In this document: in pieces, positions 4,454 through 21,998 of the stretch
How positions within the stretch are numbered: position 1 is the first letter of the stretch
How the letters are laid out: the number at the start of each line of letters is the position of its first letter
Program-made: the position numbers and the translations under genes
Notes under the pieces: generated by a model
The model's database searches: none
Told to the model about the DNA's origin: nothing
What the model saw: the letters and a program-made list of their open reading frames with translations, nothing else
Source: Luminiphilus sp.
GTDB lineage: Bacteria; Pseudomonadota; Gammaproteobacteria; Pseudomonadales; Halieaceae
DNA length: 51,586 nt
NCBI GenBank assembly: GCA_016779445.1
Contig: JADHNP010000007.1
Location: 1-51,586, forward strand
Direction of reading: 5' to 3'

Positions 4454-4538
4454 ACGCTTAATACGTTACTGATGAGGCAACGGATGGCTGCTTACTCTGT
4501 TGAAGGGGCAGCTGTTGAAGTGCCAGCAACTGCGCTCC

Positions 4539-5108: not shown

Positions 5109-5112
5109 AGTG

Positions 5113-7265: not shown

Positions 7266-7344
7266 GAAGTCTTTCTCCTCATTACAAAAAAAATTTAAGT
7301 ACGCGTAATCTTTGTGTACATCGTTATGGGTTCTGGTAGTGGGG

Positions 7345-7396
7345 CCCCTGGCTCACTGCGCGCTATTCGATGCCACTGTGCAGTGAGCCTGTTGGG
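7345..7396. repeat. Long imperfect inverted repeat upstream of exeA
   Basis: The sequence GGCTCACTG at 7350-7358 is repeated as its exact reverse complement CAGTGAGCC at 7381-7389, 22 bases apart. Beyond a short bulge the arms continue as CCCC at 7345-7348 and GGGG at 7393-7396. It lies between the divergent nitronate monooxygenase and exeA genes, just upstream of the likely exeA promoter. No T-run follows on either strand, so it is not a standard terminator. It could be an operator or a hairpin in a longer leader. Confidence 0.6.
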
Positions 7397-7409
7397 GCGC
7401 ATACTAACG

Positions 7410-7437
7410 TTCGCACCACGGCATTACGACATATTAT
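7410..7437 (+). promoter_or_regulatory. Candidate sigma-70 promoter for exeA-gspB
   Basis: TTCGCA at 7410-7415 as -35 and TATTAT at 7432-7437 as -10 are separated by 16 bases. The -10 matches five of six consensus bases. Transcription would begin near 7444, about 44 bases before the exeA ATG at 7488. This is a pattern match only. Confidence 0.4.
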
Positions 7438-7487
7438 ATGCCAACATATCGTGGCGTATCCAAACGCAGCAGGACGAGTCCATTTGC

Positions 7488-9140
7488 ATGTACCACAAAT
7501 ACTTCGGTCTCGCTGAACCTCCTTTCTCTATCGCGGTCAATCCCCGATATCTGTTCATGAGTGGGCAGCATCGGGACGCCCTCGCTCACCTGTTATACGG
7601 TGTTGGAGGTAGCGGCGGATTTATTCTGCTAACTGGAGAAGTCGGGACAGGAAAAACCACGCTCAATCGATGCCTGCTCGAGCAGCTGCCTAAAGATACC
7701 GATATCGCGATTGTTTTGAATCCTGCTCTAAGCGCAGTCGAATTACTCGCCACGGTGTGTGATGAATTGGCAATCGAATATCCCAAGAGCACCGCTAGCC
7801 TGAAGGTGCTGACCGATGCGCTGCATCAATTTCTTCTGAGCAATTATTCGGCTGACAGAAGGACGGTGCTGATGATCGATGAGGCTCAGCATCTTAATTT
7901 TGATGTTTTGGAACAAATTAGATTGCTCACCAATCTTGAGACTGACGAGCGAAAGTTGTTACAAATTATTCTGATTGGTCAACCGGAGTTGGCCGCGATG
8001 TTGGCACGGCCGGAGCTTAGACAACTGAACCAAAGAATAACCGCGCGATTTAACCTTACAGCGCTGAATTTCGATGAGACGGTAGTTTATATTCGCCACA
8101 GGCTGCAGATCGCGGGTCTCAGAGACAATCGATCGGTATTTAGTGATGCGGCGTTGCGCGAAGTGTATCGATTGACCGAGGGAATCCCCCGTTTGATCAA
8201 TTTGGTCTGTGACCGGGCGATGACGGGTGCTTACGGAAGAGCGCAAGCGACGGTTTCGAAAGCCTTGGTGCGGGATGCGGCGCGGGAAGCTCTTGGCGTG
8301 GGCGACGAAACGAATCGACGAGCGCGAGGTTTCTGGCAGGGTATTGTGATCGCACTGTTTTTGGTCTGCATCGTGTTAGCCAGTGTTTCCGCGTACATTT
8401 TCCCTGAACAACTTGCCGTGCTCGATGATGCGAATCCTATCGCGTCAGCGCCACAGGAGCCGAACGATGCGGCGAGTGATGCCACACTGCCGGTCGCCGC
8501 GCCGCCGTCCTTAACACTCCGGGAATGGCAGTTGGATCCAGCGCAAGCCGATGATGCGTTCTGGCGACTGCGCTTTGATGAGCCTCTCATGGGGAGTTTA
8601 TGTGCGGCGGCGGTATCAACGGGCTGGCAATGCGAGCTCGTGCAATCCGATGTCTGGGATGAGGTGGTGGCAATGCAGCGTCCTGTTTTATTGGAGCTTC
8701 GTAAGCCCGATGGCTTTGCTGCGGCGACTGTCTTGCTGCGGATTAAAGGAGACGTCGCGCTTATTTGGAACGGAGTGTCTGCATGCGAGGTTCCACTCTC
8801 AGCCCTGACAGAGAGTTGGCTGCATCGATTTCGTTATCTTTGGCGGAGTCCCGATGGCTGGACTGGGCCACTCGTTCTTGGTGACGAGGGTTCGGTTGTG
8901 CGCCAAATTGTGGAGGCCTTCGCCATATTGGATAATCTGCCTGCGCCGCCGCTTGACGTGTTCACTCTTGCACTGCAGCAACGCGTGATGGCCTTTCAGG
9001 CTGCCGCAGGTCTGGAGGTGGATGGAGTTATTGGAGTGAGAACCTTGCAGGCCTTGAACGATGAGTTGGGGCGAGGCTGGTCGGCTTCATCTGCGACCGA
9101 GCAGATCAATAGTCGAATAGGCGCCGAGCCATGTCGCTGA
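7488..9140 (+). CDS. exeA: ExeA/GspA-type AAA ATPase with peptidoglycan-binding domain
   Basis: The ATPase half of the ExeA-ExeB complex, which helps the type II secretion secretin assemble through the peptidoglycan. The 550-residue protein starts MYHKYFGLAEPPFSIAVNP, typical of the family. Walker A is GEVGTGKT at about 50-57 and Walker B is LMIDEAQHL at about 128-136. One membrane span lies at about 282-304 (FWQGIVIALFLVCIVLASV). A periplasmic part ends in a peptidoglycan-binding domain at about 480-535 (MAFQAAAGLEVDGVIGVRTL). The frame extends upstream to 7314, but the ATG at 7488 matches the family start exactly. The last 10 bases overlap gspB. Confidence 0.93.
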   Translation: MYHKYFGLAEPPFSIAVNPRYLFMSGQHRDALAHLLYGVGGSGGFILLTGEVGTGKTTLNRCLLEQLPKDTDIAIVLNPALSAVELLATVCDELAIEYPKSTASLKVLTDALHQFLLSNYSADRRTVLMIDEAQHLNFDVLEQIRLLTNLETDERKLLQIILIGQPELAAMLARPELRQLNQRITARFNLTALNFDETVVYIRHRLQIAGLRDNRSVFSDAALREVYRLTEGIPRLINLVCDRAMTGAYGRAQATVSKALVRDAAREALGVGDETNRRARGFWQGIVIALFLVCIVLASVSAYIFPEQLAVLDDANPIASAPQEPNDAASDATLPVAAPPSLTLREWQLDPAQADDAFWRLRFDEPLMGSLCAAAVSTGWQCELVQSDVWDEVVAMQRPVLLELRKPDGFAAATVLLRIKGDVALIWNGVSACEVPLSALTESWLHRFRYLWRSPDGWTGPLVLGDEGSVVRQIVEAFAILDNLPAPPLDVFTLALQQRVMAFQAAAGLEVDGVIGVRTLQALNDELGRGWSASSATEQINSRIGAEPCR

Positions 9141-10015
9141 TACTCGACGCGCTGAAGCGTTCTGAAACCGAGCAAAAGATGACACCCCAGATCTCGGTGG
9201 TGGATGAACCGTCGATCGATCGAAAGCGATTTCCCATGGGGCTTATCGGATGGGTTGCGTGTCTGGCGGCAGCAGTGCTGATCGGACTTGGGTATGGATG
9301 GTTTGAGTCTGGAGCGGCCACTGAAAAGAGTTATCCTCTTGCAGAGGTAGCCGTAGATAGGCCTGTGATGCATGAGCCGGGTGTTCAGTTGACCGCCGAT
9401 CGAGCCCAATCACGAGGTGAGCACCAGAGCGAGATGCGATCAAAAAGCGGCCGACTGCCCGAAACTGGCGGTACTAATGCATCTCAAAGTGAAGCGTTGC
9501 GCCGACCGCCGGGCCTCAGTTCTGAAGAGCTGACCGCACTGAACCGAGCGATGTGGGTCGACGCTGGAGAGTCTGAACCTCAGGCAGCTGATCAACGAGG
9601 TGAGGCGGATGTCGAACGGGCCGTCGGGCTGTTGCCAGATCAGGGCGAAGTGGCCCCTAAGCGCTCCTCGGTCACGGCAATAGAGCCACTTGCTGCGCCT
9701 GCGGCGTTAGATCTTCAAAAGGTAATGGAGCGGTTGGCTCTGGAGACCGGTGATGCGGGGCTCTCTCCGCACGTGGTACCGTTACTCGAAAATTTGACAC
9801 AGCAGCAAAAGGACATGGTGCCCACGATCGTTTATAGCATGCACCAATATCTCGGCGATGATGCGACCTTCGTGGAGCTCAACGGCAGTCGGTTGAGGGC
9901 AGGGGAGAGCAGTGATGCGATCCGGGTCATTGAAATCCTTGCGGATAGCGTCATTTTAAGTGCGGCGGGAACAGAGTTTCGTCTGAAGGCGCTCAATTCC
10001 TGGATTAATCTTTGA
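9131..10015 (+). CDS. gspB: General secretion pathway protein B (GspB/ExeB)
   Basis: Partner of ExeA. The first residues MSLILDALKRSETEQK are the family hallmark. A membrane span follows at about 36-57 (MGLIGWVACLAAAVLIGLGY), then about 170 low-complexity residues. A C-terminal GspB domain at about 230-294 includes YSMHQYLGDDATFVELNGS and LSAAGTEFRLKALNSWINL. The C-terminal domain is known in relatives to contact the secretin. It overlaps exeA by 10 bases, and its last 11 bases overlap the convergent phosphatase gene. No other type II secretion gene lies in the window. Confidence 0.93.
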   Translation: MSLILDALKRSETEQKMTPQISVVDEPSIDRKRFPMGLIGWVACLAAAVLIGLGYGWFESGAATEKSYPLAEVAVDRPVMHEPGVQLTADRAQSRGEHQSEMRSKSGRLPETGGTNASQSEALRRPPGLSSEELTALNRAMWVDAGESEPQAADQRGEADVERAVGLLPDQGEVAPKRSSVTAIEPLAAPAALDLQKVMERLALETGDAGLSPHVVPLLENLTQQQKDMVPTIVYSMHQYLGDDATFVELNGSRLRAGESSDAIRVIEILADSVILSAAGTEFRLKALNSWINL

Positions 10016-11417
10016 CCGGTCCACTAGCGCCTTCGTCAAACAGGAAAGCCGCTATCACGTCGTGCAGGTCTCTCTGCCTTAAAAATGGCGTCAGTAATTT
10101 CTGATCTGTCCGGTTTGCGAACAGCGGTACATTTGCGCCTGTGTGCTCTTCACTGAATCCGTTATTCGTCGCGTAATTGATGCGCATAACGCTACCCTCA
10201 CGCGTTCTCAGTCGCGCGGTGTGTCCGGGAGAATAAATGGGAATCGGATATTCTGAATAATGGCTGGGCTCCGGCAGGATCTGGGCGGACTGTGCATGGT
10301 CCGCAGTAACAATAATCAAGGTATTGCTGTGCTGACGGGCAAATTCAAGAGACAACGCAAGTGCCTCCTCGAGTTGCGCGACTTCACCGATTGAGCCACA
10401 CGGATTGCGCTTGTGGCTTTGCTTATCGATTGACGCAGATTCCACCATCAGGAAAAAACCTTGTGGATTATTGGTAGATAGGCGGCGCAAAGCGGTATGG
10501 GTCATGAATGCGAGTTCGGGAGTGGCCTCAAATTCTGGGTTGGGTTCGCAAGCCATTAATTCGGGTTCTTTTGCCTCGCCGAGATAATCTGAAAGTTGGT
10601 GGAGCCAACTGGTTTCGGTGAGCGCCGCGCGTCGTCCGTCTGTACCACGCCATCTCACTTCAAGATTTTCACTGTCAAAAAGACCCATTACCGCTTGGTC
10701 AATCCGCAGATTCTCGAGTTCGCCTGGCTCGGTCAGTACGCGCAAGCCATGGCGCTCTGCCAGAGAGCGCACTGATTCACCCCTAGCCGTTATCTGGCCC
10801 AGAAATTTCTCGCCACCACCGAAAAGTACGTGCGCACCGCTGACGGCCAACTGTTCGATGATAGAGCCCGGTCCATTATTTTGCAGGGCATCCTGTGGGC
10901 AAGTTGGTTGAGGAACCCCGTAATAGGTGCTCCCCAGAATCTCTTCTGGGCCCTCGCAGCTCCTTGAAGAAACATGGGTGAGAAAGGAGGCTGGGGTGGC
11001 GTCTGTTATTGAGGAGGTGGTGACCAGCCCTACACGCAGTCCCGACGCGATCGCCTGCTCTGCAATAGTAGGGAGGTCCCTGTCTTGAATGTCTGTTCCT
11101 ACTCTACCGATACTGGTGATTGCGCCAGTAGCGATTGCGGTGGCGGTGTTCGCAGAGTCGGCGACATACACTGGCTGACCAGCGGCGGAGAAAGTTTCAA
11201 CCTGCACCGCGCCACGAAACGGCAGCTTGTCGAGAGTAAGCATCCCGCTCATGCCGGCCAGATAGTTGCGCCCCATCGTTACATGTTGGTCGTCGAATCC
11301 GTCACCGATGATCAAGATGACATTTTTTGATGCACCAGTATCGGCTAATGCAATAGCGCTAAAAAGCAACGAGATAAAGCAGATGAGCAAACGACGCTGA
11401 GGGGGATGAGCGGTCAT
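10005..11417 (-). CDS. Alkaline phosphatase, exported
   Basis: A 470-residue alkaline phosphatase of the PhoA superfamily, releasing phosphate from monoesters in the periplasm. The nucleophile Ser is in VADSANTATA at about residue 88. The first metal-site Asp is in ILIIGDG (about 39). Later ligands appear as ESASIDKQSH, TADHAQS and EEHTGANVP. A signal peptide opens the protein (MTAHPPQRRLLICFISLLFS then AIALA). I use the ATG at 11417; a GTG at 11432 would add five residues. Neither has a strong ribosome site. It is divergent from the ammonium transporter; I saw no clear Pho box between them. Confidence 0.92.
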   Translation of the reverse strand: MTAHPPQRRLLICFISLLFSAIALADTGASKNVILIIGDGFDDQHVTMGRNYLAGMSGMLTLDKLPFRGAVQVETFSAAGQPVYVADSANTATAIATGAITSIGRVGTDIQDRDLPTIAEQAIASGLRVGLVTTSSITDATPASFLTHVSSRSCEGPEEILGSTYYGVPQPTCPQDALQNNGPGSIIEQLAVSGAHVLFGGGEKFLGQITARGESVRSLAERHGLRVLTEPGELENLRIDQAVMGLFDSENLEVRWRGTDGRRAALTETSWLHQLSDYLGEAKEPELMACEPNPEFEATPELAFMTHTALRRLSTNNPQGFFLMVESASIDKQSHKRNPCGSIGEVAQLEEALALSLEFARQHSNTLIIVTADHAQSAQILPEPSHYSEYPIPIYSPGHTARLRTREGSVMRINYATNNGFSEEHTGANVPLFANRTDQKLLTPFLRQRDLHDVIAAFLFDEGASGPVKD

Positions 11418-11500
11418 ACATAGGGCATCCACAGAAAGCGACGATAGAATAGTGGAGGCTTACCCGATTCACAATCGGCACGCATTTCCCGTTTCTCGTT

Positions 11501-11516
11501 TGGTATTTGGGGTGCA
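11501..11516 (+). promoter_or_regulatory. Candidate sigma-54 promoter for the ammonium transporter
   Basis: TGGTATTTGGGGTGCA has the invariant GG at -24 and GC at -12, ten bases apart, and matches most other positions of the consensus TGGCAYR-N4-TTGCW. Transcription would begin near 11527, about 38 bases before the ATG at 11566. Sigma-54 and NtrC control of ammonium transporters is well known, which raises the prior. I did not find a clear NtrC site upstream. Confidence 0.5.
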
Positions 11517-11565
11517 CGCGCTCCTTATGGCACACTACATCGGCGATTTTTTGAGGTCCTTATCC

Positions 11566-12885
11566 ATGTCTGCACTTTTCAGTCGATCTGACGCTTTATT
11601 TTCCGCCGGGCTGCTCGCCGTCGTTGTGTCACCCATGGCTTCGGCTGAGACAATTTCGGGCGCCGATACTGCTTGGATGCTAACGTCTACGGCTCTCGTA
11701 CTTTTCATGACGATTCCCGGGTTGTCACTATTTTACGCGGGTTTGGTGCGAGTAAAGAACGTGCTCTCTGTTCTGATGCAGTGCTTTGCGCTGACAGCGC
11801 TAATGTCGGTGTTGTGGTTTGTTGTGGGCTACACCCTTGCCTTCGGCTCTGCGGGTGTTGAGCAGGGCCCTTGGGTGGGTGATTTGGGTAATCTGTTTCT
11901 GGCGAAAGTGTCGATGGAAAGCGTAAGCGGGTCGATCCCTGAGACCCTGTTTGTCATGTTTCAACTGACTTTCGCGGTTATTACCCCCGCGCTAATCGTG
12001 GGTGGTTTCGCTGAGCGTATGCGGTTCTCGGCCATGCTGTTATTCAGCTCGCTGTGGTTGATAGTGGTCTACGCCCCGGTGTGTCACTGGGTTTGGGGTG
12101 GTGGCTGGTTGGGTGAGATGGGTCTCCAGGATTTTGCAGGGGGCGCCGTGGTGCATATCACAGCGGGGGTAGCGGCTCTGGTAGCCGCACTATCTCTGGG
12201 GGGACGACGAGGCTTTGGTCAAACAGCGATGCCGCCACATAACCTGACCATGACAGTGACGGGCGCGGGGATGCTGTGGGTTGGATGGTTCGGTTTTAAC
12301 GCCGGATCTGCGGTAGCGGCTGACAGCAGCGCGGCGATGGCGATGCTCGTCACGCATTTGTCGGCTGCCTGTGGCTCCCTCGCCTGGATGGGCATGGAGT
12401 GGATCCGCCACGGTAAGCCCTCTGTGTTGGGGATTGTTACTGGCATGGTTGCAGGTTTAGGCACAATCACACCCGCTTCCGGCTCTGTTGGTCCAGCGGG
12501 TGCCGTTGTCATTGGCCTCTCGGCGGGCGTGATTTGCTATTTCGCGACGATTACTCTGAAGAATCGGCTCGGTATTGATGACAGCTTGGATGTGTTCCCG
12601 GTGCACGGAGTCGGAGGAATGCTGGGGTTGGTGATGGCCGGTATTTTCTGCTCCCCGTCTTTGGGGTTATTCAGTGGTAATGGTTTCTCCGATGGCGTCG
12701 AGACTATTACTGGGCAACTGGCGATACAGCTCACGGGTATTGGCGCGACGTTTGCCTACACCGCGCTGATGAGTTGGATATTACTCCGAGTTGTGAACGC
12801 TATGGTAACCGTGAGGGTCGATCAGGACGATGAAACGGCCGGGTTGGATATCGTGCTGCATGACGAGAGGGGCTACGACCTATAG
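11566..12885 (+). CDS. amt: Ammonium transporter, Amt family
   Basis: A 439-residue inner-membrane ammonium channel with about eleven membrane spans. The start at 11566 has GAGGT upstream and gives an N-terminal cleavable segment (MSALFSRSDALFSAGLLAVV) ending SPMASA. Family marks are GLSLFYAGLVRVKNVLSVL, the twin pore histidines in GGAVVHITAGVAAL and VFPVHGVGGMLG, and NAGSAVAADSSAAMAM. The C-terminal cytoplasmic tail is short. A glnK gene, which often sits beside amt, is absent here. A sigma-54-like promoter precedes it. Confidence 0.95.
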   Translation: MSALFSRSDALFSAGLLAVVVSPMASAETISGADTAWMLTSTALVLFMTIPGLSLFYAGLVRVKNVLSVLMQCFALTALMSVLWFVVGYTLAFGSAGVEQGPWVGDLGNLFLAKVSMESVSGSIPETLFVMFQLTFAVITPALIVGGFAERMRFSAMLLFSSLWLIVVYAPVCHWVWGGGWLGEMGLQDFAGGAVVHITAGVAALVAALSLGGRRGFGQTAMPPHNLTMTVTGAGMLWVGWFGFNAGSAVAADSSAAMAMLVTHLSAACGSLAWMGMEWIRHGKPSVLGIVTGMVAGLGTITPASGSVGPAGAVVIGLSAGVICYFATITLKNRLGIDDSLDVFPVHGVGGMLGLVMAGIFCSPSLGLFSGNGFSDGVETITGQLAIQLTGIGATFAYTALMSWILLRVVNAMVTVRVDQDDETAGLDIVLHDERGYDL

Positions 12886-12897
12886 CGCTGCGCTATT

Positions 12898-14406
12898 CTA
12901 GGTGAGGGCGCTGAGGGAGACTGTGATGCCTAGTTTCTCGAAAGACGGTTTACTCTGCTGTATTTCCCAAATTGTCAGTGGGTGGGCTTCGCCCCAATCT
13001 TGAGGATAGGTCAGGGTAAGCGTTTCACCGCTCGCGCATACTGAGAGGTCAGGAATGTCTTCCATTTCCTCAACGTGCTTCAGAGTGACCGCCAGTCTCA
13101 GCAAGATCATCATCCGCACCACATTAGCCCTTTTCCGACTGGGAATAGAGTCCAGAATCTCCGAGCGAACCTTTCCCCTTAGTCCAGAGATGAGCGCGGC
13201 CATGACCTCTTGGTCCTGTTGAGCGAACCCCGGTAAATCGCTATTGAGGACAAGATAGGCTGAGTGCTGAGAGTAGTTTTTCTGAGACACGGCAGCGCCG
13301 ACTTCATGCATGGCTGCTGCCCATATCAAAAGATCCACCTCGCTACCCAGCAGACGCCACTCCGATAAGGTCGCCGATGCTAATGTCTCCACGCGGCGGC
13401 AGACCAGATCAGCAATATGTTGATCAACTTTGTAGCGTTGTTGCATAGCTGAGACGGTACGAGTGCGCACGTCTTCATGACCGAACCTGCCGATCAGATC
13501 GTAAATGACGCCCTCTCGGAGAGCGCCCGGCGAGGTGCGCATCTCCTCTATTTGTAAGCCATCGAAGATGCCAAGAGTGATGGCTAATCCTGCGGTGACA
13601 ACGCCTTTTCGCGTATCGTTGAGGCCGTCTAGACTGATCTCTTCAACATGCTTGAAAGCAAGCAGTACCCGCTTCAGCTTTTCTAGGGAATCCCGATCAA
13701 TCCCGCTATCTCGCCAACCAGCCGTTGATATCAGTGTCTCTATGGCGCGAAGAGTGCCGGAGGATCCGACCGCCTCTTGCCACTCTTTGCTGTGGTAGCC
13801 GCGTCGAATATGCGACACCTCAATGCGTGCCCTTTGGTAGGCGGCCTCAAAACCTTCACGATGAATAAAGCCATCTGGCAAATATCGTCGGCCATAGGAT
13901 ACACATCCCATCTGGAGACTCTCGAGTCTTTTTGGCTCAAAGCGCTCACCTAAAATAAATTCTGTACTGCCTCCGCCAATATCCAAGACCAATCTGACGT
14001 TTGCGTCATCGGAGAGGGTGTGTGCCACCCCCAAATAAATCAGCCGAGCCTCCTCGCGTCCATATATAACGTCAATAGGGGCATCCATTATTTGCTCGGC
14101 CGGATCTATAAAAGCTTGTCGATTTTTTGCGCGCCGCAGTGCGTTGGTGCCCACAATACGTATTTTCTCGGGCGAAGTGCTGTCTATGAGTTGCTTAAAA
14201 CGTTCGAGACAAGTCAGGCCTCGGGTAATCGCAGAGGGAGTGAGCATGCCCGCGTCATCGGTTTCGCCTAGTTGAACTTTCTCCGCTAGAGCGTGAACGG
14301 GTCTCAGCTCGCCAAATTGGGACTTAGCGATCATCAGATGGAATGAGTTACTTCCCAGATCAATCGCCGCTAAGGTCTCGTCTGTTTTTTGGCTGTTATC
14401 AGTCAT
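12898..14406 (-). CDS. ppx: Exopolyphosphatase / Ppx-GppA phosphatase
   Basis: A 502-residue member of the Ppx/GppA family, which removes phosphate from polyphosphate or converts pppGpp to ppGpp. The ASKHA-fold motifs are present: AAIDLGSNSFHLMIA near the N-terminus and LVLDIGGGSTEFILG at about residue 140-154. The C-terminal HD-like domain keeps AAMHEVGA and YSQHSAYLVLNSDLPGF. Domain length favours Ppx over the shorter GppA-only forms. The start is uncertain: ATG at 14406 (used), ATG at 14430 or TTG at 14442. It lies 69 bases after alr on the same strand and may be read through from that operon. Confidence 0.9.
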   Translation of the reverse strand: MTDNSQKTDETLAAIDLGSNSFHLMIAKSQFGELRPVHALAEKVQLGETDDAGMLTPSAITRGLTCLERFKQLIDSTSPEKIRIVGTNALRRAKNRQAFIDPAEQIMDAPIDVIYGREEARLIYLGVAHTLSDDANVRLVLDIGGGSTEFILGERFEPKRLESLQMGCVSYGRRYLPDGFIHREGFEAAYQRARIEVSHIRRGYHSKEWQEAVGSSGTLRAIETLISTAGWRDSGIDRDSLEKLKRVLLAFKHVEEISLDGLNDTRKGVVTAGLAITLGIFDGLQIEEMRTSPGALREGVIYDLIGRFGHEDVRTRTVSAMQQRYKVDQHIADLVCRRVETLASATLSEWRLLGSEVDLLIWAAAMHEVGAAVSQKNYSQHSAYLVLNSDLPGFAQQDQEVMAALISGLRGKVRSEILDSIPSRKRANVVRMMILLRLAVTLKHVEEMEDIPDLSVCASGETLTLTYPQDWGEAHPLTIWEIQQSKPSFEKLGITVSLSALT

Positions 14407-14475
14407 TAATGTGGGTTGTGACGTTTCCATAGGTGAGGGCAACGTGGGTTGAAATGTGGTCCTGCAAGTGGGAGG

Positions 14476-15546
14476 TCATTTTTCGTAGCATCGTTTAGCT
14501 CTCCCCGTCATTCGCGTCATCAGTTCGTAGCCAATGGTGCCACTGGCTGCTGCCACCTCGTCTACACCTGGGTTGTGTCCCCAGAGGATTGCTCGCGTCC
14601 CGATTTCCACGTCATCACAGTCTGTTACGTCAACGGTTAACATGTCCATCGATACTCGCCCGACAAGAGGGGCGAGGGAGCCGTTAATTTCTATCGGCGT
14701 GCCGTTCTGTGCGGCCCAGGGATAGCCGTCTCCGTAGCCCACAGGCAGGGTAGCAATCAGGCTGCCTCGCCTAGCGATCCAATGACCGCCGTACCCGACA
14801 GCCTCGCCGGCAGCTATCCGCCGGACCGCCAATACCGCAGTTTCAAAACGCATGGCCGGCTTGAGTTCTGAGTTGCTGGATAAATCTTTCACCAGGCCGC
14901 CATACATTGCATAGCCGACTCTTGCCCAGTCGTTTTTGGTGGCAAGGCCCAGACGGCTTGCTGCCGAGTTACATAGGCTTACGTCGCTTGGCCAATCAGA
15001 GACAATTTGTCGCCACAGATTGAGTTGTTGTGTGGTAATTGAGCTGTCAGGGAACTCGGCGGATGCCAAATGCGACATCAAGGTTAAACGACGACAGCCC
15101 GCCCCTTCTAACGACTGCTGAACGCTGTGAAGTTGCTCAGGGGCGAACCCAAGACGATGCATTCCAGTATCGATTTTGATCCAAATATGGGAAAGCGGAC
15201 GCTGATGAGCTCTGCACCATTCAATTTGGCGGAGATCGTGTACGGCGGGCCACAAGTCCTGTTTTGCAGCAATGGCCACGTCATTTTCCGAGTGTGGGCC
15301 CTCCAGTATTAGGATCGGTTTGCTGATTCCTGCGGTGCGTAGCTCAACAGCTTCTTCGGTGAATGCGACGGCGTAAGCGTCAACCATTTTCTCAATATGT
15401 CGAGCGACAGCGACTGCGCCGTGCCCGTATGCATCTGCCTTGACGACTGCCATAAAGCGGCTCTCCTCGAGGGAGCGCTTAAGCGCGGAGATGTTATCGC
15501 CAATGGCCGCGAGATCAATGAAAACAGAGGTGGATCTGGTCATCAT
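14476..15546 (-). CDS. alr: Alanine racemase
   Basis: A PLP-dependent alanine racemase of 356 residues, interconverting L- and D-alanine. The PLP lysine lies in MAVVKADAYGHGAVAVARHI near residue 35. The C-terminal domain has VGRVSMDMLTVDVTD, whose tyrosine-partner region completes the active site, and AVGYGG and LPVGYGDGYPW flank it. The start at 15546 gives an ATGA overlap with the aminotransferase stop, so the two are translationally coupled. It closes the D-amino-acid operon. Its position beside a D-amino-acid transaminase suggests catabolic or salvage use as well as cell-wall supply. Confidence 0.93.
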   Translation of the reverse strand: MMTRSTSVFIDLAAIGDNISALKRSLEESRFMAVVKADAYGHGAVAVARHIEKMVDAYAVAFTEEAVELRTAGISKPILILEGPHSENDVAIAAKQDLWPAVHDLRQIEWCRAHQRPLSHIWIKIDTGMHRLGFAPEQLHSVQQSLEGAGCRRLTLMSHLASAEFPDSSITTQQLNLWRQIVSDWPSDVSLCNSAASRLGLATKNDWARVGYAMYGGLVKDLSSNSELKPAMRFETAVLAVRRIAAGEAVGYGGHWIARRGSLIATLPVGYGDGYPWAAQNGTPIEINGSLAPLVGRVSMDMLTVDVTDCDDVEIGTRAILWGHNPGVDEVAAASGTIGYELMTRMTGRAKRCYEK

Positions 15547-16403
15547 TTTATGTCGAATCGATGAAGGTGAAAAAGCCGCTGTGCCGCAGACCAATAGCTC
15601 CCGGGTCTGCCATCTGCCACTGGTTTACCATCGATGGCAATTACGGGTGCCAGCTCTTTGGTCGATGAGCTCAACCAGACCTCCTCAGCCGACATGACTG
15701 CTTCGCGACTGACGGGTCCCACCCGCACCTGCCAATCCGTATATTTTTCGAGTAGTTCGAGACAGAGGCGGCGGGTCACGCCGGGTAGCTTTTGATGATC
15801 CAGCTCGGGGGTGAGAACTTGGCCGTCTTTTACGATAAAAACATTGCATGCCGCAGCCTCGGTGAGTAAGTCTTGCTCATTAAACAACAAAACTTCCTCT
15901 GCTCCTTCGTTTACCGCCTCCATCATGTGAAGCACGTTGCCCAGCAGGGCGGTGGACTTGATATGACATCGGGCCCATCTCGTGTCCGCGCGGGTCACCG
16001 TGGTAAAACAGGTCGCATTATCTGCTGCGCCATTCGATGGAGGGTCGATGGGAAAGGTGTAAGCAAACACGGTTGGCGAAGCGCGCTCGGGGAAGGCGTG
16101 TTGCCGCTTCTCGACCACGCCACGAGTGATCTGCAGATAGATGCCCACATTGCCGTTACCATTTCGAATGATCAGTTCCTTTAGGATAGCTTCCAGATCC
16201 GAATCTGATGGCGCGATGGGGAGTTGGATTTCGTGAAGCGAGTGCCTGAGGCGATCCATGTGGTACTGCAGTGCCACTGTTTTCCCGACGTAACAAGGTA
16301 TTACCTCATAAACGCCGTCTCCAAAGAGGAACCCCCGATCCATAGGCGATATTTTTGCCTCATGAAGCGGTAAAAACTCGCCGTTCAGATATGCCATGGT
16401 CAT
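15543..16403 (-). CDS. dat: D-amino-acid transaminase (class IV aminotransferase)
   Basis: A fold-type IV PLP aminotransferase of 286 residues. It fits D-amino-acid transaminase better than branched-chain enzymes. KRQHAFPE keeps the Arg-x-His pair that binds the substrate carboxylate in the Bacillus enzyme, and the PLP lysine is in RWARCHIKSTALLGNVL, nearly the Bacillus RCDIKSLNLLG. Other marks are DRGFLFGDGVYEVIP and LLTEAAACNVFIVKDG. The reaction, known for the family, is D-alanine plus 2-oxoglutarate giving pyruvate plus D-glutamate. The start at 16403 overlaps the DUF4392 stop by four bases; an ATG at 16397 is the alternative. It is coupled to alr downstream. Confidence 0.9.
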   Translation of the reverse strand: MTMAYLNGEFLPLHEAKISPMDRGFLFGDGVYEVIPCYVGKTVALQYHMDRLRHSLHEIQLPIAPSDSDLEAILKELIIRNGNGNVGIYLQITRGVVEKRQHAFPERASPTVFAYTFPIDPPSNGAADNATCFTTVTRADTRWARCHIKSTALLGNVLHMMEAVNEGAEEVLLFNEQDLLTEAAACNVFIVKDGQVLTPELDHQKLPGVTRRLCLELLEKYTDWQVRVGPVSREAVMSAEEVWLSSSTKELAPVIAIDGKPVADGRPGSYWSAAQRLFHLHRFDIK

Positions 16404-17242
16404 AGTGTGCACTCTTGATAAAGCAAAGTGATGATGTGGTCGATGAGTACGTTACCAGCGCCCTCAGCAAACCCATCTTCAGTAGCGGTAGGCTTACCGG
16501 TAACGCCATCCACTGCGCCAGACTTCACCAAAAAAGCGAGGTCATTACGAATATCGGCGCCTAAGTCGGGTATGGCCCCGCTTTGAGCGTAAGCCAGTGC
16601 GCAAATTGCATAGGCCGCCCAATTAGAAACGTCAGCCACTAACAATTCGTCGCAGATGCTCATGGCGGGATGTATGTCCAGACCCTTCAGCGCCTCTATG
16701 GCTTTACCCATACCGAGTTCATTGCCACCATCACCAATCGCGATGGTCGGGCAAGCTGCAAGCTCAAAGTAGGGCTCAGCGGGCGCGCACTCAGACGTAA
16801 TATCAGTACCGGACATGTTGTAATACTTTCCATCCATAGCGGCGCCCGGCCTTTCAATGCTCATTAATAAAGCAGGAGGTGCGCTTTGGTAAAGATCCTG
16901 AACAGACTGGCGGATGTGTTCTGTTGTGCCTGTGGCCAACTCCTTGGTGCGGTAGGTCGGACTGAGACAGTGGGTAACAGCAGGATCCGATAAGATTGTG
17001 GGTCTCAGGTGGTTTCGCTCACAAAGCCGGTACAGCGCCATTGCGCCCGCGGGCCCATCCGTCTCAAACGAGCCAGCCACCGGAAATCCAGTCACGATAT
17101 AGGCCGTCCCCCGTTTCGTTCTCAGTAGCTCAGCGGCCCTTCCAAGATAGCCTGGATTTAATGCTTGCCGGATGCGGCTCATGCCTCTGTGATCATTTTG
17201 TATGAGCAGCATTTCAACGGCTTCAATGGTTTCCTTGGCCAT
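16400..17242 (-). CDS. DUF4392 protein, homologous to the C-terminal half of D-glutamate cyclase
   Basis: A 280-residue DUF4392 protein, the domain forming the C-terminal half of vertebrate DGLUCY, which turns D-glutamate into 5-oxo-D-proline. Family blocks seen here are TAYIVTGFPVAGSFETDGP near the N-terminus, a middle IAIGDGGNELGMGKA, and DELLVADVSNWAAYAICAL. The start at 17242 (ATG) lies 8 bases after the pxpC stop; a TTG at 17290 would overlap pxpC by 40 bases and is less likely. It lies between pxpC and the D-amino-acid transaminase. Cyclase activity is inferred from homology and neighbours. Confidence 0.85.
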   Translation of the reverse strand: MAKETIEAVEMLLIQNDHRGMSRIRQALNPGYLGRAAELLRTKRGTAYIVTGFPVAGSFETDGPAGAMALYRLCERNHLRPTILSDPAVTHCLSPTYRTKELATGTTEHIRQSVQDLYQSAPPALLMSIERPGAAMDGKYYNMSGTDITSECAPAEPYFELAACPTIAIGDGGNELGMGKAIEALKGLDIHPAMSICDELLVADVSNWAAYAICALAYAQSGAIPDLGADIRNDLAFLVKSGAVDGVTGKPTATEDGFAEGAGNVLIDHIITLLYQECTL

Positions 17243-17250
17243 ATGGTGCG

Positions 17251-18177
17251 TCACGATAATTTGGTCTCGAGGTAATGATGCTCGAGCCAAGCAACTCGAT
17301 CCGCCTCTTGGGGCGTAATGGCGACAAATCGCACACGTTGACCGGGGCGAGATTGAACCAAGCGATGGCAGTCACCGCTGATAACGGCCCCTGCTTTGGG
17401 GTAGCCGCCGACCGTTTGGCGATCATTGAGTAAAACAATTGGATCGCCATCTGGTGGTATTTGTATGGCACCGTAACAGGTGGCTTCAGAGAGTAACGCC
17501 TGTATGCCCGTGTCGACAGGATCCCCACTAAGCGCGATACCCATTCGGTTTGCTCGGGGGGTGACAGAGAAAACCTGTGAAATCAGCTTCTGTCGCGTTG
17601 TCTCAGAGAACTGATCGAATTGGAATCCGGGGATAAACCTGAGAGACAGTGTGTCGCGATGACGGTTGCTTGGCATTATTGAATCTAATGGCTTGTAATC
17701 TTTGCTCTCTGGCCCCAAAGGCAAGATATCTCCGTCACGCAGGTATCTTCCTTCGAGGCCCCCAATGCGCTCTCGGGGAGAAGTACTTCGGCTCCCCAAA
17801 CAGGTTGGTATGGCAATTCCCCCAGCAACGTGGAGGTAGTTATAGACGCCGTGTCCGCTTGTCTGGATGTTGACCATTTGGTTTGCTTCAGTGTGTTCCA
17901 ACGAGCCGCTGTGGTGGGCTGCGTCGCCAATCGTAATGAGTGCGGGCGCACCGGTCACAACAAAATGACAAGGATGCGATGTTTTAAAAGCCAAATCTCC
18001 ATAGGCAAACTCTAATGCGGCTTCATTATTGCGATGCCCAAGGTGACGTTGTCCCATCAGCATGGCAAATTTGTCCATGGCGCCACTCGGTGGGATGCCG
18101 ATCTGCTGATGCCCCGATCGACCTGTGTCCTGAATGGTAGTAGCGATGCCAGAACGAATGAGGGCGAGCGTTCTCAT
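17251..18177 (-). CDS. pxpC: 5-oxoprolinase subunit C (PxpC/KipA)
   Basis: A 308-residue biotin-dependent-carboxyltransferase-like protein, one of three subunits of bacterial ATP-dependent 5-oxoprolinase (5-oxoproline plus ATP and water gives glutamate). Marks are TIQDTGRSGHQQIGIPPSGA near the N-terminus, NYLHVAGGIAIPTCLGSRST in the middle, and IQIPPDGDPIVLLNDRQTVG with GYPKAGAVISGDCHRLVQ late. Its ATG overlaps the pxpB stop by four bases, indicating coupled translation. The neighbours pxpA and pxpB complete the enzyme. Confidence 0.93.
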   Translation of the reverse strand: MRTLALIRSGIATTIQDTGRSGHQQIGIPPSGAMDKFAMLMGQRHLGHRNNEAALEFAYGDLAFKTSHPCHFVVTGAPALITIGDAAHHSGSLEHTEANQMVNIQTSGHGVYNYLHVAGGIAIPTCLGSRSTSPRERIGGLEGRYLRDGDILPLGPESKDYKPLDSIMPSNRHRDTLSLRFIPGFQFDQFSETTRQKLISQVFSVTPRANRMGIALSGDPVDTGIQALLSEATCYGAIQIPPDGDPIVLLNDRQTVGGYPKAGAVISGDCHRLVQSRPGQRVRFVAITPQEADRVAWLEHHYLETKLS

Positions 18178-18875
18178 TGTTTGGCCTGAGTATCTTGCAC
18201 CGCTCGGAAGTCAGCCATTGAAATCGGCTCAAACTTGACGGTGTCGCCGACGCAGAGCAACGCAGCTGGGTCTGAATTCAAGTCAAATAGACGTGTCGGG
18301 CAAGTGCCAATGACCCGCCAACCCCCGGGTGATGAGCATGGATAGACCGCTGTCTGCTGATCGGCTATGGCCACAGAGCCCGGCGGGACGTTTGCTCTGG
18401 GTGTAACTAAGCGGGGTGTTGCCAGGCGCTCATCTACCGTGCCGAGATAGCAGAACCCCGGCGCAAAGCCCGTTGCGTAAGCGAAGTAATCCTTCCTGCT
18501 GTGCAGCTCGATAATATCGTCGATACCCATATTTTGTTTTTCAGCGAGCCACTCAAGATCCTGAGCAACGCTGGGGTGATACAACACCGGGAGCGTAACA
18601 GTCTTTCGCTCAGTGTCCGCCCTGCCTGGTGAATCGCACGCAGCCTGAGCCTGGTCCTCTAGCCAGCGCTGCGCGCGTTCTCGGTCAAGAGTCAGCGGAT
18701 TGAAGAACAAGGTCAATGTGGTGTAACCCACGATACTATCAATCAGAGCGTCCGAGAATTGCCGTCTGGCGGCGCTTTGCAGCGCCAGTAAGCTATAGGT
18801 GAGCGACGGCTTGGGTGATTGCGAAAACGCAAGGCGCAATCCCAGGTCTCCCGCGGGGCCCACGTCAAATTTCAT
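18174..18875 (-). CDS. pxpB: 5-oxoprolinase subunit B (PxpB/KipI)
   Basis: A 233-residue PxpB, related to Bacillus KipI, forming the B subunit with PxpC. Conserved blocks are VTLPVLYHPSVAQDLEWLA, FAYATGFAPGFCYLGTVDE, then RLATPRLVTPRANVPPGSVA and YPCSSPGGWRVIGTCPTRLF. The start ATG directly follows the pxpA stop (TGAATG) and its own stop overlaps pxpC. The alternative Bacillus role as a sporulation-kinase inhibitor is unlikely here because the full PxpABC set is present. Confidence 0.93.
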   Translation of the reverse strand: MKFDVGPAGDLGLRLAFSQSPKPSLTYSLLALQSAARRQFSDALIDSIVGYTTLTLFFNPLTLDRERAQRWLEDQAQAACDSPGRADTERKTVTLPVLYHPSVAQDLEWLAEKQNMGIDDIIELHSRKDYFAYATGFAPGFCYLGTVDERLATPRLVTPRANVPPGSVAIADQQTAVYPCSSPGGWRVIGTCPTRLFDLNSDPAALLCVGDTVKFEPISMADFRAVQDTQAKQ

Positions 18876-19616
18876 TCACTTTTTGTCCAATGCGCTGCGA
18901 ATGGCTCTGATCATCTTGACGGCGCCAGGGGTATCGCCATGAACGCAAAGCGTGTCGGCACTGACAGGAATACGCTTCCCCTTAGGTGTGCGAAGATTAT
19001 TCTGAGCAATAGCCAGGGACTGCTCGGTTGCCTCTTCCAGTGTCAGCAAAGCACCCGGCTTGTCGCGGGGAATGAGGAGGCCGCGGCTTGTATAGCCGCG
19101 ATCGGCAAAGGCCTCATACTGCAGTGTCAATCCGTGTTGGACTGCTAATTCAACTGTTTTTCTATCACGGGGAGTGGCCAGCACCACGAGTGATAAGTCA
19201 GCGTGCCAGCCCGCAACTGCCCTCATCACGTCACTGAGAACCAAGGAGTCTGACTGCATCGCATGATAAAGAGCTCCATGGGGCTTTACGAAGCTCACCC
19301 GAGTCCCATGAGTTCTAGCTATGCCATCTAGTGCACCGATTTGGTAATGAATCAAATCAATTAACTCCGGGCCTCGAATGTCCATCGCTCTTCGGCCAAA
19401 GCCCTGAAGGTCCGGGTAGGACACATGGGCTCCCACCTCTGTCCCGTGGCGGCGGGCGAGTGTTACACAGTGCCGCATAGTCCCCGGGTCACCGGCATGT
19501 CCGCCGCAGGCAATATTAGCGGCGTCAATCAACGGCATGATTGCCGCATCATCGCCGATAGTCCAAGCGCCGTAGCTTTCCCCCATATCGCAGTTGAGGA
19601 TTAGTCGTTGTGTCAT
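18876..19616 (-). CDS. pxpA: 5-oxoprolinase subunit A (PxpA, LamB/YcsF family)
   Basis: A 246-residue LamB/YcsF family protein, the hydrolytic subunit of 5-oxoprolinase. The N-terminus LNCDMGESYGAWTIGDD, then DAANIACGGHAGDP and VGAHVSYPDLQGFGRR, are family signatures with likely metal or catalytic Asp, Glu and His residues. VSFVKPHGALYHAMQ and AFADRGYTSRGLLIPR follow. The ATG at 19616 shares one base with the DUF1445 stop (TGATG); a TTG one codon earlier is less likely. It is tightly coupled with pxpB downstream. Confidence 0.94.
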   Translation of the reverse strand: MTQRLILNCDMGESYGAWTIGDDAAIMPLIDAANIACGGHAGDPGTMRHCVTLARRHGTEVGAHVSYPDLQGFGRRAMDIRGPELIDLIHYQIGALDGIARTHGTRVSFVKPHGALYHAMQSDSLVLSDVMRAVAGWHADLSLVVLATPRDRKTVELAVQHGLTLQYEAFADRGYTSRGLLIPRDKPGALLTLEEATEQSLAIAQNNLRTPKGKRIPVSADTLCVHGDTPGAVKMIRAIRSALDKK

Positions 19617-20413
19617 CAAAAAATCGCCAGCTCAGTATTCTTTAAATCAGTTACGAGCATGTGCCCGGGTTCGTGTGTCACCGCAAGTGGGAGTTTTGCC
19701 GCCTGCAGGGCGACTTGTGGGGTAACGCCACAAGCCCAAAACAGTGGTATTTCCGAGGGCGCCACAGCAACTGCAGTTCCAAAGTCTGGTTTGTTCAGGT
19801 CGGCTATACCAATTTGTGCGGGATCGCCCAGGTGGATGGGCGCGCCGTGCACCGACGGAAAGCGAGAGCAAATCTGAATGGCTCGGATGGCATTAGAGGC
19901 GGACATCGGCCGCATACTTACGACCATGTTTCCAGAGAAAGGCCCTGAGCTCGCACACGGCATGTTGGTTACGTACATCGGGACGTTAACCCCTTCAGTA
20001 ATATTACGTATCTCAACACCTGCGTCCATCAACGCTTCCTCAAAAGAAAAAGAGCAACCTAATGCAAATGCGGTCCAATCGGTCTGCCAGAGTTGACGGA
20101 TATCGGTAATTTGCTCTGCCAAAACGCCATCTCGCCACACTCGGTATTTTGGCAGATCGATACGAATGTCGATATCGTTGCCCACCTCAGGCAAGGCTGG
20201 GTCGCCGGGGGATGGGCTCATGGCCAATAGCGGACAGGGGCGGGGGTTACGTTGGCAGAAAGTCTGAAAGTCGGAGGCCCCGTCCGAGGGGAGTATTACG
20301 ATATTGGCTTGCACATATCCGGGCGCCAGTCCCGACGTTTGGGAGCTGAAGCTACCGTCTCTGCATTGTGCCCTGACACTTCGCCCTGTTTCAGCGAGCT
20401 CACCCGCTACCAT
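19616..20413 (-). CDS. DUF1445 protein, homologous to the N-terminal half of D-glutamate cyclase
   Basis: A 265-residue DUF1445 protein (often labelled putative hydro-lyase), the domain forming the N-terminal half of vertebrate D-glutamate cyclase. Conserved blocks are [65 protein letters not shown] and [11 protein letters not shown]. It is the first gene of the operon, starting at the ATG at 20413, 55 bases from the divergent acyl-CoA synthetase. In Bacillus the homologue ycsI also sits with pxpA (ycsF), kipI and kipA, so linkage with 5-oxoprolinase is old. Its biochemical role alone is unsettled. Confidence 0.88.
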
Positions 20414-20468: not shown

Positions 20469-21998
20469 ATGCCGCATTTTTCCGCCTACGCAAGTGAGAC
20501 CCCGGATCGGCCAGCCTACATTATGGCTAATTCTGGTGAGACGGTGACGTATCGCGTGCTCGATCAGCGTTCAAATCAAATAGCACATCTTCTGCGGAAT
20601 TCAGGCATTCATCGCGGCGATCATATTGCAATGATGATGAAAAATTGCGCTGAGTTTTTACAGGTTGCCCAGGCAGCGATCCGAGCGGGGGTCATCTTTA
20701 CGCCCATCAGCACGCACCTCAAGCAGGATGAGACGGCTTATATCATTACCAATTGCAAGGCAAAGTTATTCATTGCGTCGGCGAGCTTGGCTTCAGTGGC
20801 TATCGAGGCGGCAGCAGCTTCTGAGGGGCTTGGTATCTGTCTGTCGGTTGGCGGAGAGATTGCCGGTTTTGAGTCCCTTGAGCAGCATATTGAGGGCCTG
20901 CCTGACAGCCCGATCGCAGACGAATGCCTCGGTGCCCCCATGCTCTATTCATCAGGTACAACGGGTAAGCCAAAGGGCGTGTATTGGAAGCCCCATGCCG
21001 AGAGTATTCATGCGGATCATCCGATGTCCGGAAGTGTTGGTGCGTTTTTTGGATTTGGGTTAGACACGATTTATCTGTCTCCCGCGCCGCTCTATCACGC
21101 CGCGCCTCTGCACTATAACTTGATGGTACTGGGTCTAGGGGGAACCTCCGTCATCATGGAGCAATTTGATCCTGCGCAGTCCCTGGCGCTGATCGATCAA
21201 TACAAAGTGACGCATAGCCAGTGGGTGCCCATTATGTTTGTTCGTATGCTGAAGCTCCCCGAAAGGGACCGTCATCGATATGATCTCAGCTCCATGAAGT
21301 GCGCAATTCACGCGGCAGCGCCCTGCCCAATCGATGTCAAAGAGGCCATGATTGATTGGTGGGGTCCTGTGATCGTCGAGTATTACTCCGGCAGTGAGGG
21401 TAATGGTTTCACCATTATCGATTCGGCAAACTGGCTGACTCATAGGGGGTCCGTGGGGCAGGCCATCATTGGCGAACCGCGAATCCTTGGTGAGAATGGT
21501 GAGGTTTTGGCCACAGGTGAGATTGGTGATGTTTATTTCGCAAATAGCCGGCCATTTGAGTATTTTGAGGAACCCGAGAAGACGCGAGAAGCCTTTAATG
21601 AGCAGGGCTGGAGTACCATGGGAGATGTAGGCTACCTCGATGAAGAGGGCTTTTTGTACCTAACCGACCGCAAAAACTTCACCATCATATCGGGTGGCGT
21701 CAATGTTTACCCCGCAGAAATAGAAGGCCTGTTAATTACGCATGACAAGGTTGCCGACGTGGCAGTTTTCGGTGTGCCTCACCCGGAGTTTGGAGAAGAG
21801 GTGGTTGCGGTGGTGCAACCTATGGAGTGGAGCGAGGCAACAGGGGAAACCGCTGAGGAGCTGACTCAGTGGATGCGGGAGCGGCTATCAGGCGTGAAAG
21901 TGCCGAGAAAAATCGATTTTCTGGAACAATTGCCTCGAATGGACAATGGCAAACTGTATAAACGGCATTTACAAGACGCGTATCGAGCAGCAACATGA
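20469..21998 (+). CDS. Acyl-CoA synthetase (AMP-forming)
   Basis: A 509-residue member of the acyl-adenylate-forming family, activating a carboxylic acid to its CoA thioester with ATP. The phosphate-binding loop is YSSGTTGKPKG near residue 160, the adenine motif is YYSGSEGNG, and the C-terminal hinge and lysine appear in LTDRKNFTIISGGVNVYPAE and MDNGKLYKRHL. The substrate is not readable; the family includes medium- and long-chain fatty acid and aromatic acid ligases. An AGAGG ribosome site precedes the ATG. The patatin-like lipase follows 94 bases later, which would supply free fatty acids. Confidence 0.9.
   Translation: MPHFSAYASETPDRPAYIMANSGETVTYRVLDQRSNQIAHLLRNSGIHRGDHIAMMMKNCAEFLQVAQAAIRAGVIFTPISTHLKQDETAYIITNCKAKLFIASASLASVAIEAAAASEGLGICLSVGGEIAGFESLEQHIEGLPDSPIADECLGAPMLYSSGTTGKPKGVYWKPHAESIHADHPMSGSVGAFFGFGLDTIYLSPAPLYHAAPLHYNLMVLGLGGTSVIMEQFDPAQSLALIDQYKVTHSQWVPIMFVRMLKLPERDRHRYDLSSMKCAIHAAAPCPIDVKEAMIDWWGPVIVEYYSGSEGNGFTIIDSANWLTHRGSVGQAIIGEPRILGENGEVLATGEIGDVYFANSRPFEYFEEPEKTREAFNEQGWSTMGDVGYLDEEGFLYLTDRKNFTIISGGVNVYPAEIEGLLITHDKVADVAVFGVPHPEFGEEVVAVVQPMEWSEATGETAEELTQWMRERLSGVKVPRKIDFLEQLPRMDNGKLYKRHLQDAYRAAT

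Follow-up and report, generated by a model that had tools for sequence, protein, structure and literature searches.

The window analyzed here is the whole 51,586-nucleotide stretch of contig JADHNP010000007.1 (assembly GCA_016779445.1; 2.47 Mb, 86.8% complete) from Luminiphilus sp., a member of the Halieaceae. At positions 14476-20413 it carries an operon of seven genes, confirmed by reading the DNA, which all lie on the minus strand in the order DUF1445, pxpA, pxpB, pxpC, DUF4392, dat and alr. Their predicted products comprise a complete 5-oxoprolinase, two enzymes of D-amino-acid metabolism and homologues of both domains found in the D-glutamate cyclase of animals:

19616..20413, minus strand: DUF1445 (PF07286) protein, 'D14', a homologue of one of the two domains in animal D-glutamate cyclase
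18876..19616, minus strand: pxpA (LamB/YcsF), 5-oxoprolinase subunit A (PF03746, NF003816)
18174..18875, minus strand: pxpB, 5-oxoprolinase subunit B (PF02682, TIGR00370)
17251..18177, minus strand: pxpC, 5-oxoprolinase subunit C (PF02626, TIGR00724)
16400..17254, minus strand: DUF4392 (PF14336) protein, 'D43', a homologue of the C-terminal domain in animal D-glutamate cyclase
15543..16403, minus strand: dat, D-amino-acid transaminase of fold type IV, named from PF01063 and its nearest PDB relatives
14476..15546, minus strand: alr, alanine racemase (TIGR00492, PF01168/PF00842)

The DUF1445 and pxpA genes share a single base (TGATG), pxpA and pxpB abut, and 4-base overlaps join pxpB to pxpC, pxpC to the DUF4392 gene and the DUF4392 gene to dat. 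The overlap between dat and alr is 1 or 4 bases, according to the start chosen. The DUF4392 gene begins with GTG and has an alternative ATG at 17242. Promoter-like sites between 12800 and 20600 were not above chance, with 3 found and 5.4 expected.

The DUF1445 protein scores 216 bits against PF07286 (Pfam cut-off 25) and 397 bits against NF003969 (NCBIfam cut-off 324), and it matches PDB entries 3db9 and 2pif with 313 and 292 bits. The DUF4392 protein matches PF14336 with 190 bits (cut-off 27.9) and the homologue TON_0340 with 94 bits; both domains of DGLUCY-like D-glutamate cyclases are therefore encoded in the operon. All three subunits of a PxpABC 5-oxoprolinase are present and adjacent: PxpA scores 289 bits against PF03746 and 305 against NF003816 (cut-off 213), PxpB 205 against PF02682 and 153 against TIGR00370 (cut-off 146), and PxpC 252 against PF02626 and 239 against the domain model TIGR00724 (cut-off 230), while falling under the equivalog cut-off of NF045499 (223 versus 500 bits). 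Alr is matched by TIGR00492 with 316 bits (cut-off 168) and by both of its domain families, PF01168 and PF00842. Dat is a class IV aminotransferase (PF01063, 174 bits) whose best PDB matches are D-amino acid aminotransferases (179 bits), but it fails the NCBIfam cut-off for D-amino-acid transaminase (TIGR01121, 218 versus 277 bits). Its R-x-H motif, which we take to be the carboxylate trap, has R and H in 151 of 156 aligned rows, the other five being gaps, and the lysine that binds pyridoxal phosphate (PLP) is present in 150 of the 156, again with gaps in the rest. These features suggest that Dat works like a D-amino-acid transaminase, although it is not a certified member of that family.

To place the operon among its relatives we searched 120 genomes of the window's own family (f1; loci, genomes and families of the survey carry L, G and f numbers). 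DUF4392 is found in 102 of them, our own included, and the other 101 loci were compared using profiles built from the window proteins. The full seven-gene order is present in 83 of the 101, in plain form in 81 and with a split or doubled frame in two. Contig ends cut 13 of the remaining 18 loci; three loci of one genus (L142, L153 and L157) are without pxpB and pxpC in the cluster, and L095 and L116 have their DUF1445 gene at another place in the genome. Of 194 genomes drawn from across the order, 26 have a DUF4392 match above the cut-off. Nineteen of these lie outside f1, and at 12 of the 19 loci all seven genes again stand in the full order. Two of the 19 are without alr, and another is truncated at the edge of its contig; L201 is without pxpB/C, L203 without DUF1445 (found elsewhere in the genome) and pxpB/C, L193 (genome G253) reads DUF1445-DUF4392-dat with no pxp genes in the cluster, and L204 has DUF4392 alone. 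Few genomes of the phylum have DUF4392 at all (10 of 398, our own included). The operon is conserved, and its gene order is kept far beyond chance. The preliminary description of this locus had drawn on the tight packing of the seven genes, which the DNA bears out with abutting genes and overlaps of up to 4 bases, and had staked its reading on conservation of the gene order in relatives, which holds both within the family and outside it. The observation itself comes out stronger than was first put forward.

Strict vertical descent was considered and set aside, since a FastTree phylogeny of DUF4392, made from a chosen subset of loci and with support values unexamined, splits f1 and recovers no single clade. 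Because the tree does not unite f1, lateral transfer of the operon may have occurred. In five loci from other families of the order (L187, L188, L190, L194 and L195) a gene of ∼300 codons stands between DUF4392 and dat; it reads as a LysR regulator, one copy having been tested with Pfam and the others judged from sequence, and it is on the opposite strand in L187. Two flanking genes, both named from a reading of the sequence with no profile, are syntenic in many relatives, and the divergent one usually bounds the operon on its upstream side within the family:

12898..14442, minus strand: ppx/gppA-like gene, on the same strand as the operon and 33 bases downstream of it
20469..21998, plus strand: acyl-CoA ligase-like gene, divergent from the operon

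The two ends of the operon behave differently within the window's own genus. Fourteen genomes of this genus (75-100% complete) have no DUF4392 match; DUF1445 was not matched in any of the 14, and the glutamate racemase MurI was not over the cut-off in any. Nevertheless, dat-alr is kept at the same chromosomal site with the same neighbors at 10 of the 11 alr loci recovered (L046-L051 and L053-L056). The eleventh contig starts inside alr, and alr was not found in the other three congeners. The dat-alr pair is thus the retained core, and the two putative cyclase halves, DUF1445 and DUF4392, are absent together. Because dat-alr persists at 10 of 11 loci where these halves are absent, DUF1445-pxpABC-DUF4392 is a separable accessory module. 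The idea that all five genes were lost as one block is only partly right: the four module-less congeners checked (L206-L209) all hold pxpC elsewhere, within a different pxpABC that scores lower against the operon profiles and, in the two tested, has an Nramp-type transporter as its neighbor.

We examined next how these bacteria obtain D-glutamate (D-Glu). MurI was not matched by the TIGR00067 profile in the window's own, 86.8% complete genome, whereas the control was positive in 10 of 14 genomes. Among the 120 f1 genomes MurI is over the cut-off in one, and eight others have weak matches below it; the sole positive, G037, is an assembly of 420 contigs with 3% contamination, so its MurI may be a contaminant. 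The C-terminal domain of alanine racemase (Alr_C) is found in 114 of the 120, with one match in 112 of these, and in our own genome the single match is the alr of the operon. MurD is present in all 48 genomes tested (over the cut-off in 47), and its residues were read in 46, our own included and G037 and G265 left out. The choice between D-Glu and L-Glu is reported to be set by Asp182 and Lys348 in Escherichia coli MurD, as against Glu and Arg in MurD2 (PMC8788868). The equivalent residues are Asp and Lys in all 46 proteins, and a further position named in that paper is Ala in 45. Because MurD is of the D-Glu type throughout, these cells very probably need free D-Glu. Dat acting with D-Ala from Alr is the only route to D-Glu that was found, no search for other transaminases having been made. 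Since MurI is not found, alr is the only copy detected and dat-alr persists without the cyclase halves, dat-alr is better read as the D-Ala and D-Glu supply of the lineage.

The distribution of MurI across the order points in the same direction. Outside f1, MurI is absent or under the cut-off in 13 of 19 DUF4392-positive genomes versus 37 of 168 DUF4392-negative ones (Fisher p = 7e-5, kinship ignored). For operons that contain both dat and alr the corresponding figures are 12 of 15 versus 38 of 172 (p = 1e-5, kinship likewise ignored). Fragmentary MurI matches were counted as missing in these comparisons, including one 56-bit fragment in G291. Among the genomes listed, three families (f47, f39 and f38) each have operon-bearing members without MurI and operon-less members with MurI, and this contrast suggests repeated events. 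In f1, MurI is missing whether DUF4392 is present or not; the tie is therefore to dat-alr and not to the cyclase halves.

Outside the order, the module occurs in surroundings that suggest what the other five genes may do. Elsewhere in the class DUF4392 is carried by five genomes (L227-L231), four of them in family f48. In f48, locus L227 reads dat-DUF4392-pxpC-pxpB-pxpA-DUF1445, and next to it are genes for an RpiR/SIS regulator, the exo-muramidase NamZ and a fusion of a BadF-type kinase with a GKRP/SIS domain. The GKRP/SIS domain has the fold of the etherase acting on N-acetylmuramic acid (MurNAc) 6-phosphate, and we read the BadF-GKRP proteins near the module as presumably kinase plus etherase. 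At L229 of the same family the module, with dat and without pxpA, neighbors GH3, BadF-GKRP, a sodium symporter and an S13 D-Ala-D-Ala carboxypeptidase, and at L231 BadF-GKRP, a symporter, GH3 and RpiR/SIS accompany DUF1445, DUF4392 and an FAD/Fe-S oxidase, with no dat or pxp genes. Two Pseudoalteromonas plasmids carry GH3-DUF1445-pxpA-DUF4392-aminotransferase (Dat); plasmid records were examined for two of five Pseudoalteromonas matches and for five of 37 matches overall. The neighbors at L227, L229 and L231 and on these plasmids are a peptidoglycan-sugar catabolic setting, and such MurNAc-catabolism genes beside the module outside the order support a role in salvage of peptidoglycan-derived D-Glu.

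The animal protein that contains both DUF1445 and DUF4392 domains converts D-Glu to 5-oxo-D-proline (PMC5339696). TON_0340, a homologue of DUF4392, is reported to be a Mn-dependent phosphatase with six invariant acids (PMC5132392). These six metal-ligand acids are intact in all 148 aligned rows, the window included and some genomes counted twice, and an AlphaFold2 model of the DUF4392 protein matches TON_0340 with a Z score of 34, followed by DHH/RecJ phosphoesterases at about 11. The model of the DUF1445 protein matches its own family, 2pif and 3db9, with Z scores of 34 (2pif) and 31. Its next best match is MJ0159, an NrpR-like nitrogen repressor (Z 9.6, root-mean-square deviation 4.2 over 168 residues), after which nothing exceeds 5.5; NrpR senses 2-oxoglutarate. 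A racemase fold, considered for either protein, does not appear in the lists of structural matches, although such an absence proves nothing. In a further family of the class, locus L228 carries at 3680-14440 on the minus strand a 3586-residue frame with two DUF4392 domains, beside a 441-residue frame with a DUF1445 domain.

We consider it probable that the operon serves cell-wall metabolism as a D-glutamate node with two parts, a supply part and a recovery module, every activity in it being predicted from sequence. In the supply part, Alr would make D-Ala from L-Ala, and Dat would then use D-Ala and 2-oxoglutarate to form D-Glu in place of the lost MurI. The recovery module, DUF1445-pxpABC-DUF4392, would handle D-Glu and 5-oxo-D-proline arising mainly from peptidoglycan turnover or scavenging. 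Within it, DUF1445 and DUF4392 together may be a split bacterial counterpart of the animal D-glutamate cyclase, and PxpABC would reopen the ring at the expense of ATP. The likeliest net direction is recovery, in which 5-oxo-D-proline would be opened to D-Glu. This D-Glu could be reused by MurD, or Dat could convert it with pyruvate to 2-oxoglutarate and D-Ala, from which Alr would then form L-Ala. The enzyme activities, the direction of reaction and the acceptance of the D form by PxpABC are all things that we infer. The preliminary description had proposed a linear route from Ala through D-Ala, D-Glu and 5-oxo-D-proline to Glu. With MurI not found, a single alr detected and dat-alr retained without the cyclase halves, that route is unsupported, and the supply role of dat-alr had been missed. 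The stereochemical problem that it raised, that opening of the D form would only give back D-Glu, is real only if the end product must be L-Glu, and it eases if reopening to D-Glu is itself the purpose. There would be no dead end, because the reopened D-Glu is usable by MurD or Dat, and the step would not be futile, because D-Glu is costly in a cell without MurI. The proposed link to peptidoglycan-derived D-amino acids is supported by the RpiR/SIS, NamZ, GH3 and kinase-SIS fusion genes beside the module in some relatives outside the order; the preliminary description was correct on D-amino acids and probably so on the cell wall.

Several observations weigh against this interpretation. It is weakest where it sets a cyclase against an opener driven by ATP, and a loop from D-Glu to 5-oxo-D-proline and back would waste ATP; the opposition would be resolved if the two act on different pools, or if the cyclase pair is otherwise engaged, for example in helping PxpABC. 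The name 'cyclase' is not secure for DUF4392, because TON_0340 is a reported Mn phosphatase and the model resembles DHH/RecJ folds, and a cyclase role of DUF4392 or DUF1445 in these bacteria is suggested by homology only. Nor is PxpABC inseparable from the cluster, because some of its genes are missing there in several lineages. The pxpB/C genes are missing from L142, L153, L157, L201, L203, L282 and L283, and at least three lineages (one f1 genus, f4 and the Pseudoalteromonas plasmids) retain pxpA next to DUF4392 and dat; L229 is the reverse case, with pxpBC and without pxpA. The absence of MurI from the window's own genome is tempered by the incompleteness of the assembly, and in six genomes of the order MurI coexists with DUF4392; in three of the six (G120, G187 and G195) dat-alr is present as well. 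Wall genes were not found among the scanned neighbors of L230, the fourth f48 locus, which are a PLP enzyme, an amino-acid kinase, an alkaline phosphatase, AceK and an M1 peptidase. Within the order, wall-catabolism genes were not found among the scanned neighbors of L187, L193, L201, L203 and L204; most other loci of the order, the window's own included, were not profile-scanned beyond the operon. In four genomes outside the class (L223-L226), DUF1445, pxp, dat and alr were not found near DUF4392. On three alphaproteobacterial plasmids (L284, L285 and L286) DUF4392 accompanies a threonine/serine dehydratase or an arylmalonate decarboxylase; L284 also has RidA beside the dehydratase, and one of the three has a DUF1445-type gene a few genes away. 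The plasmid neighborhoods mean that the DUF4392 family probably has other substrates, and the non-fitting loci together indicate that DUF4392 is not always a D-Glu enzyme.

Other explanations account for part of the evidence. The module might serve as an overflow valve for Dat, which would lack MurI-type feedback, by draining excess D-Glu to 5-oxo-D-proline that is then exported or slowly reopened. The direction reported for the animal homologue, from D-Glu to 5-oxo-D-proline, is the one required (PMC5339696), and the module is associated with dat and, statistically, with the absence of MurI. We nevertheless regard a valve as rather unlikely: 14 congeners have neither the cyclase halves nor MurI over the cut-off, and dat-alr is kept at the 10 loci that show it, so that a valve is not required, and it leaves both the ATP-driven PxpABC in the operon and the wall-catabolism clusters unexplained. 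Alternatively, DUF1445, DUF4392 or PxpA could act as an epimerase, such that D-Glu is converted through 5-oxo-D-proline and 5-oxo-L-proline to L-Glu by an L-specific PxpABC. Every gene would then be consecutive in one route, and in Bacillus subtilis DUF1445 occurs (as a control match) whereas DUF4392 was not matched; the DUF1445 gene of that species is linked with PxpABC without DUF4392. However, an epimerase is not evident from the sequences and several lineages have clusters that retain PxpA and DUF4392 but not PxpB/C, which makes this inversion quite improbable. It is decidedly unlikely, too, that D-Glu and L-Glu are interconverted via 5-oxoproline by one enzyme system of DUF1445, PxpA and DUF4392, whether or not PxpBC takes part. 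If they were, glutamate would be inverted without a racemase and partly at the cost of ATP, allowing bacteria that lack MurI to keep D-Glu in balance, and the PxpA present without PxpBC in several lineages would be a working subunit of the system and not a relic.

The remaining alternatives dispense with a joint pathway or with the supply role. The pxpABC genes could provide general damage control for 5-oxo-L-proline and merely share a promoter with dat-alr. PxpABC of Corynebacterium glutamicum does turn 5-oxo-L-proline into L-Glu (PMC13274462), and all four module-less congeners checked have their different pxpABC elsewhere, Nramp-flanked in the two tested. The recurrence of the same order across many families, the joint absence of DUF1445 and DUF4392 in 14 of 14 congeners, and the G253 cluster (L193), in which DUF1445-DUF4392-dat stand together with pxp genes absent, make so loose an association unlikely. 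Finally, wall D-Glu could come from the MurD2/MurL route, leaving dat-alr catabolic. This route exists in other Gammaproteobacteria without MurI (PMC5808125, PMC8788868), and at the position of MurD Leu416, 37 of the 46 proteins read share Phe with MurD2, whereas five, our own included, have Leu. Changing two further positions, Leu416 among them, is reported to leave stereospecificity unaltered (PMC8788868), whereas the two deciding residues are of the D-Glu type in our own genome and the 45 relatives. In addition, our own murD belongs to a cluster of wall genes and is flanked by frames that look, on inspection by eye, like MraY and FtsW/MurG/MurC. MurD2/MurL is therefore disfavored as the D-Glu source and very improbable.

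If the operon does combine D-Glu supply with recovery, the consequences would extend beyond this locus. The reading bears on the role of bacterial DUF1445 and DUF4392 proteins, which are split relatives of a human mitochondrial enzyme, on the reason why 5-oxoprolinase genes adjoin them, on how D-Glu is made in a widespread marine family without detectable glutamate racemase, and on the fate of D-Glu and 5-oxo-D-proline freed from peptidoglycan. It predicts that dat is essential in these bacteria and that MurI inhibitors are without effect on them, and that growth on murein peptides or 5-oxo-D-proline depends on the five-gene module. In the literature searched, which covered few subscription papers, 5-oxoprolinase was not found together with DUF1445 or DUF4392 (one paper named the two DUFs without it), DUF1445 was not found with peptidoglycan, and 5-oxoprolinase was not found with a term for the D form; D-glutamate cyclase and 5-oxoprolinase appeared together in a single work, in a table of two human proteins. 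The parts of the operon belong to known families, whereas the combination, its family-wide MurI-less setting and the conserved order did not turn up there.

The operon can be compared with four known systems. Tannerella has genes for MurNAc and peptidoglycan catabolism (MurK and MurQ; PMC10465942), and some relatives of the module likewise adjoin NamZ, GH3, BadF-GKRP and RpiR/SIS genes. These neighbors occur in another order of bacteria, and none was seen beside the operon in the present order among the loci scanned. D-amino-acid transaminase is named as one of two routes to D-Glu (PMC5808125), and the MurI-independent supply of D-Glu by this enzyme shares with our system the pairing of Dat with Alr where MurI is not found. 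Here, however, the arrangement extends across a whole gammaproteobacterial family and is embedded with 5-oxoproline genes. The animal protein DGLUCY (C14orf159/9030617O03Rik) has the same two domains, DUF1445 and DUF4392 (PMC5132392, PMC5339696). Unlike DGLUCY, the bacterial counterparts, known here from their genes, are two separate proteins whose genes flank pxpABC in an operon with D-amino-acid enzymes. Among PxpABC-type operons, that of B. subtilis is of the ycsF-ycsI-kipI-kipA type, and DUF1445 occurs in that species too. The pxpTABC operon of C. glutamicum has pxpA, pxpB and pxpC as here (PMC13274462). The present operon differs from these in having no transporter gene inside and in the addition of DUF4392, a D-amino-acid transaminase and an alanine racemase.

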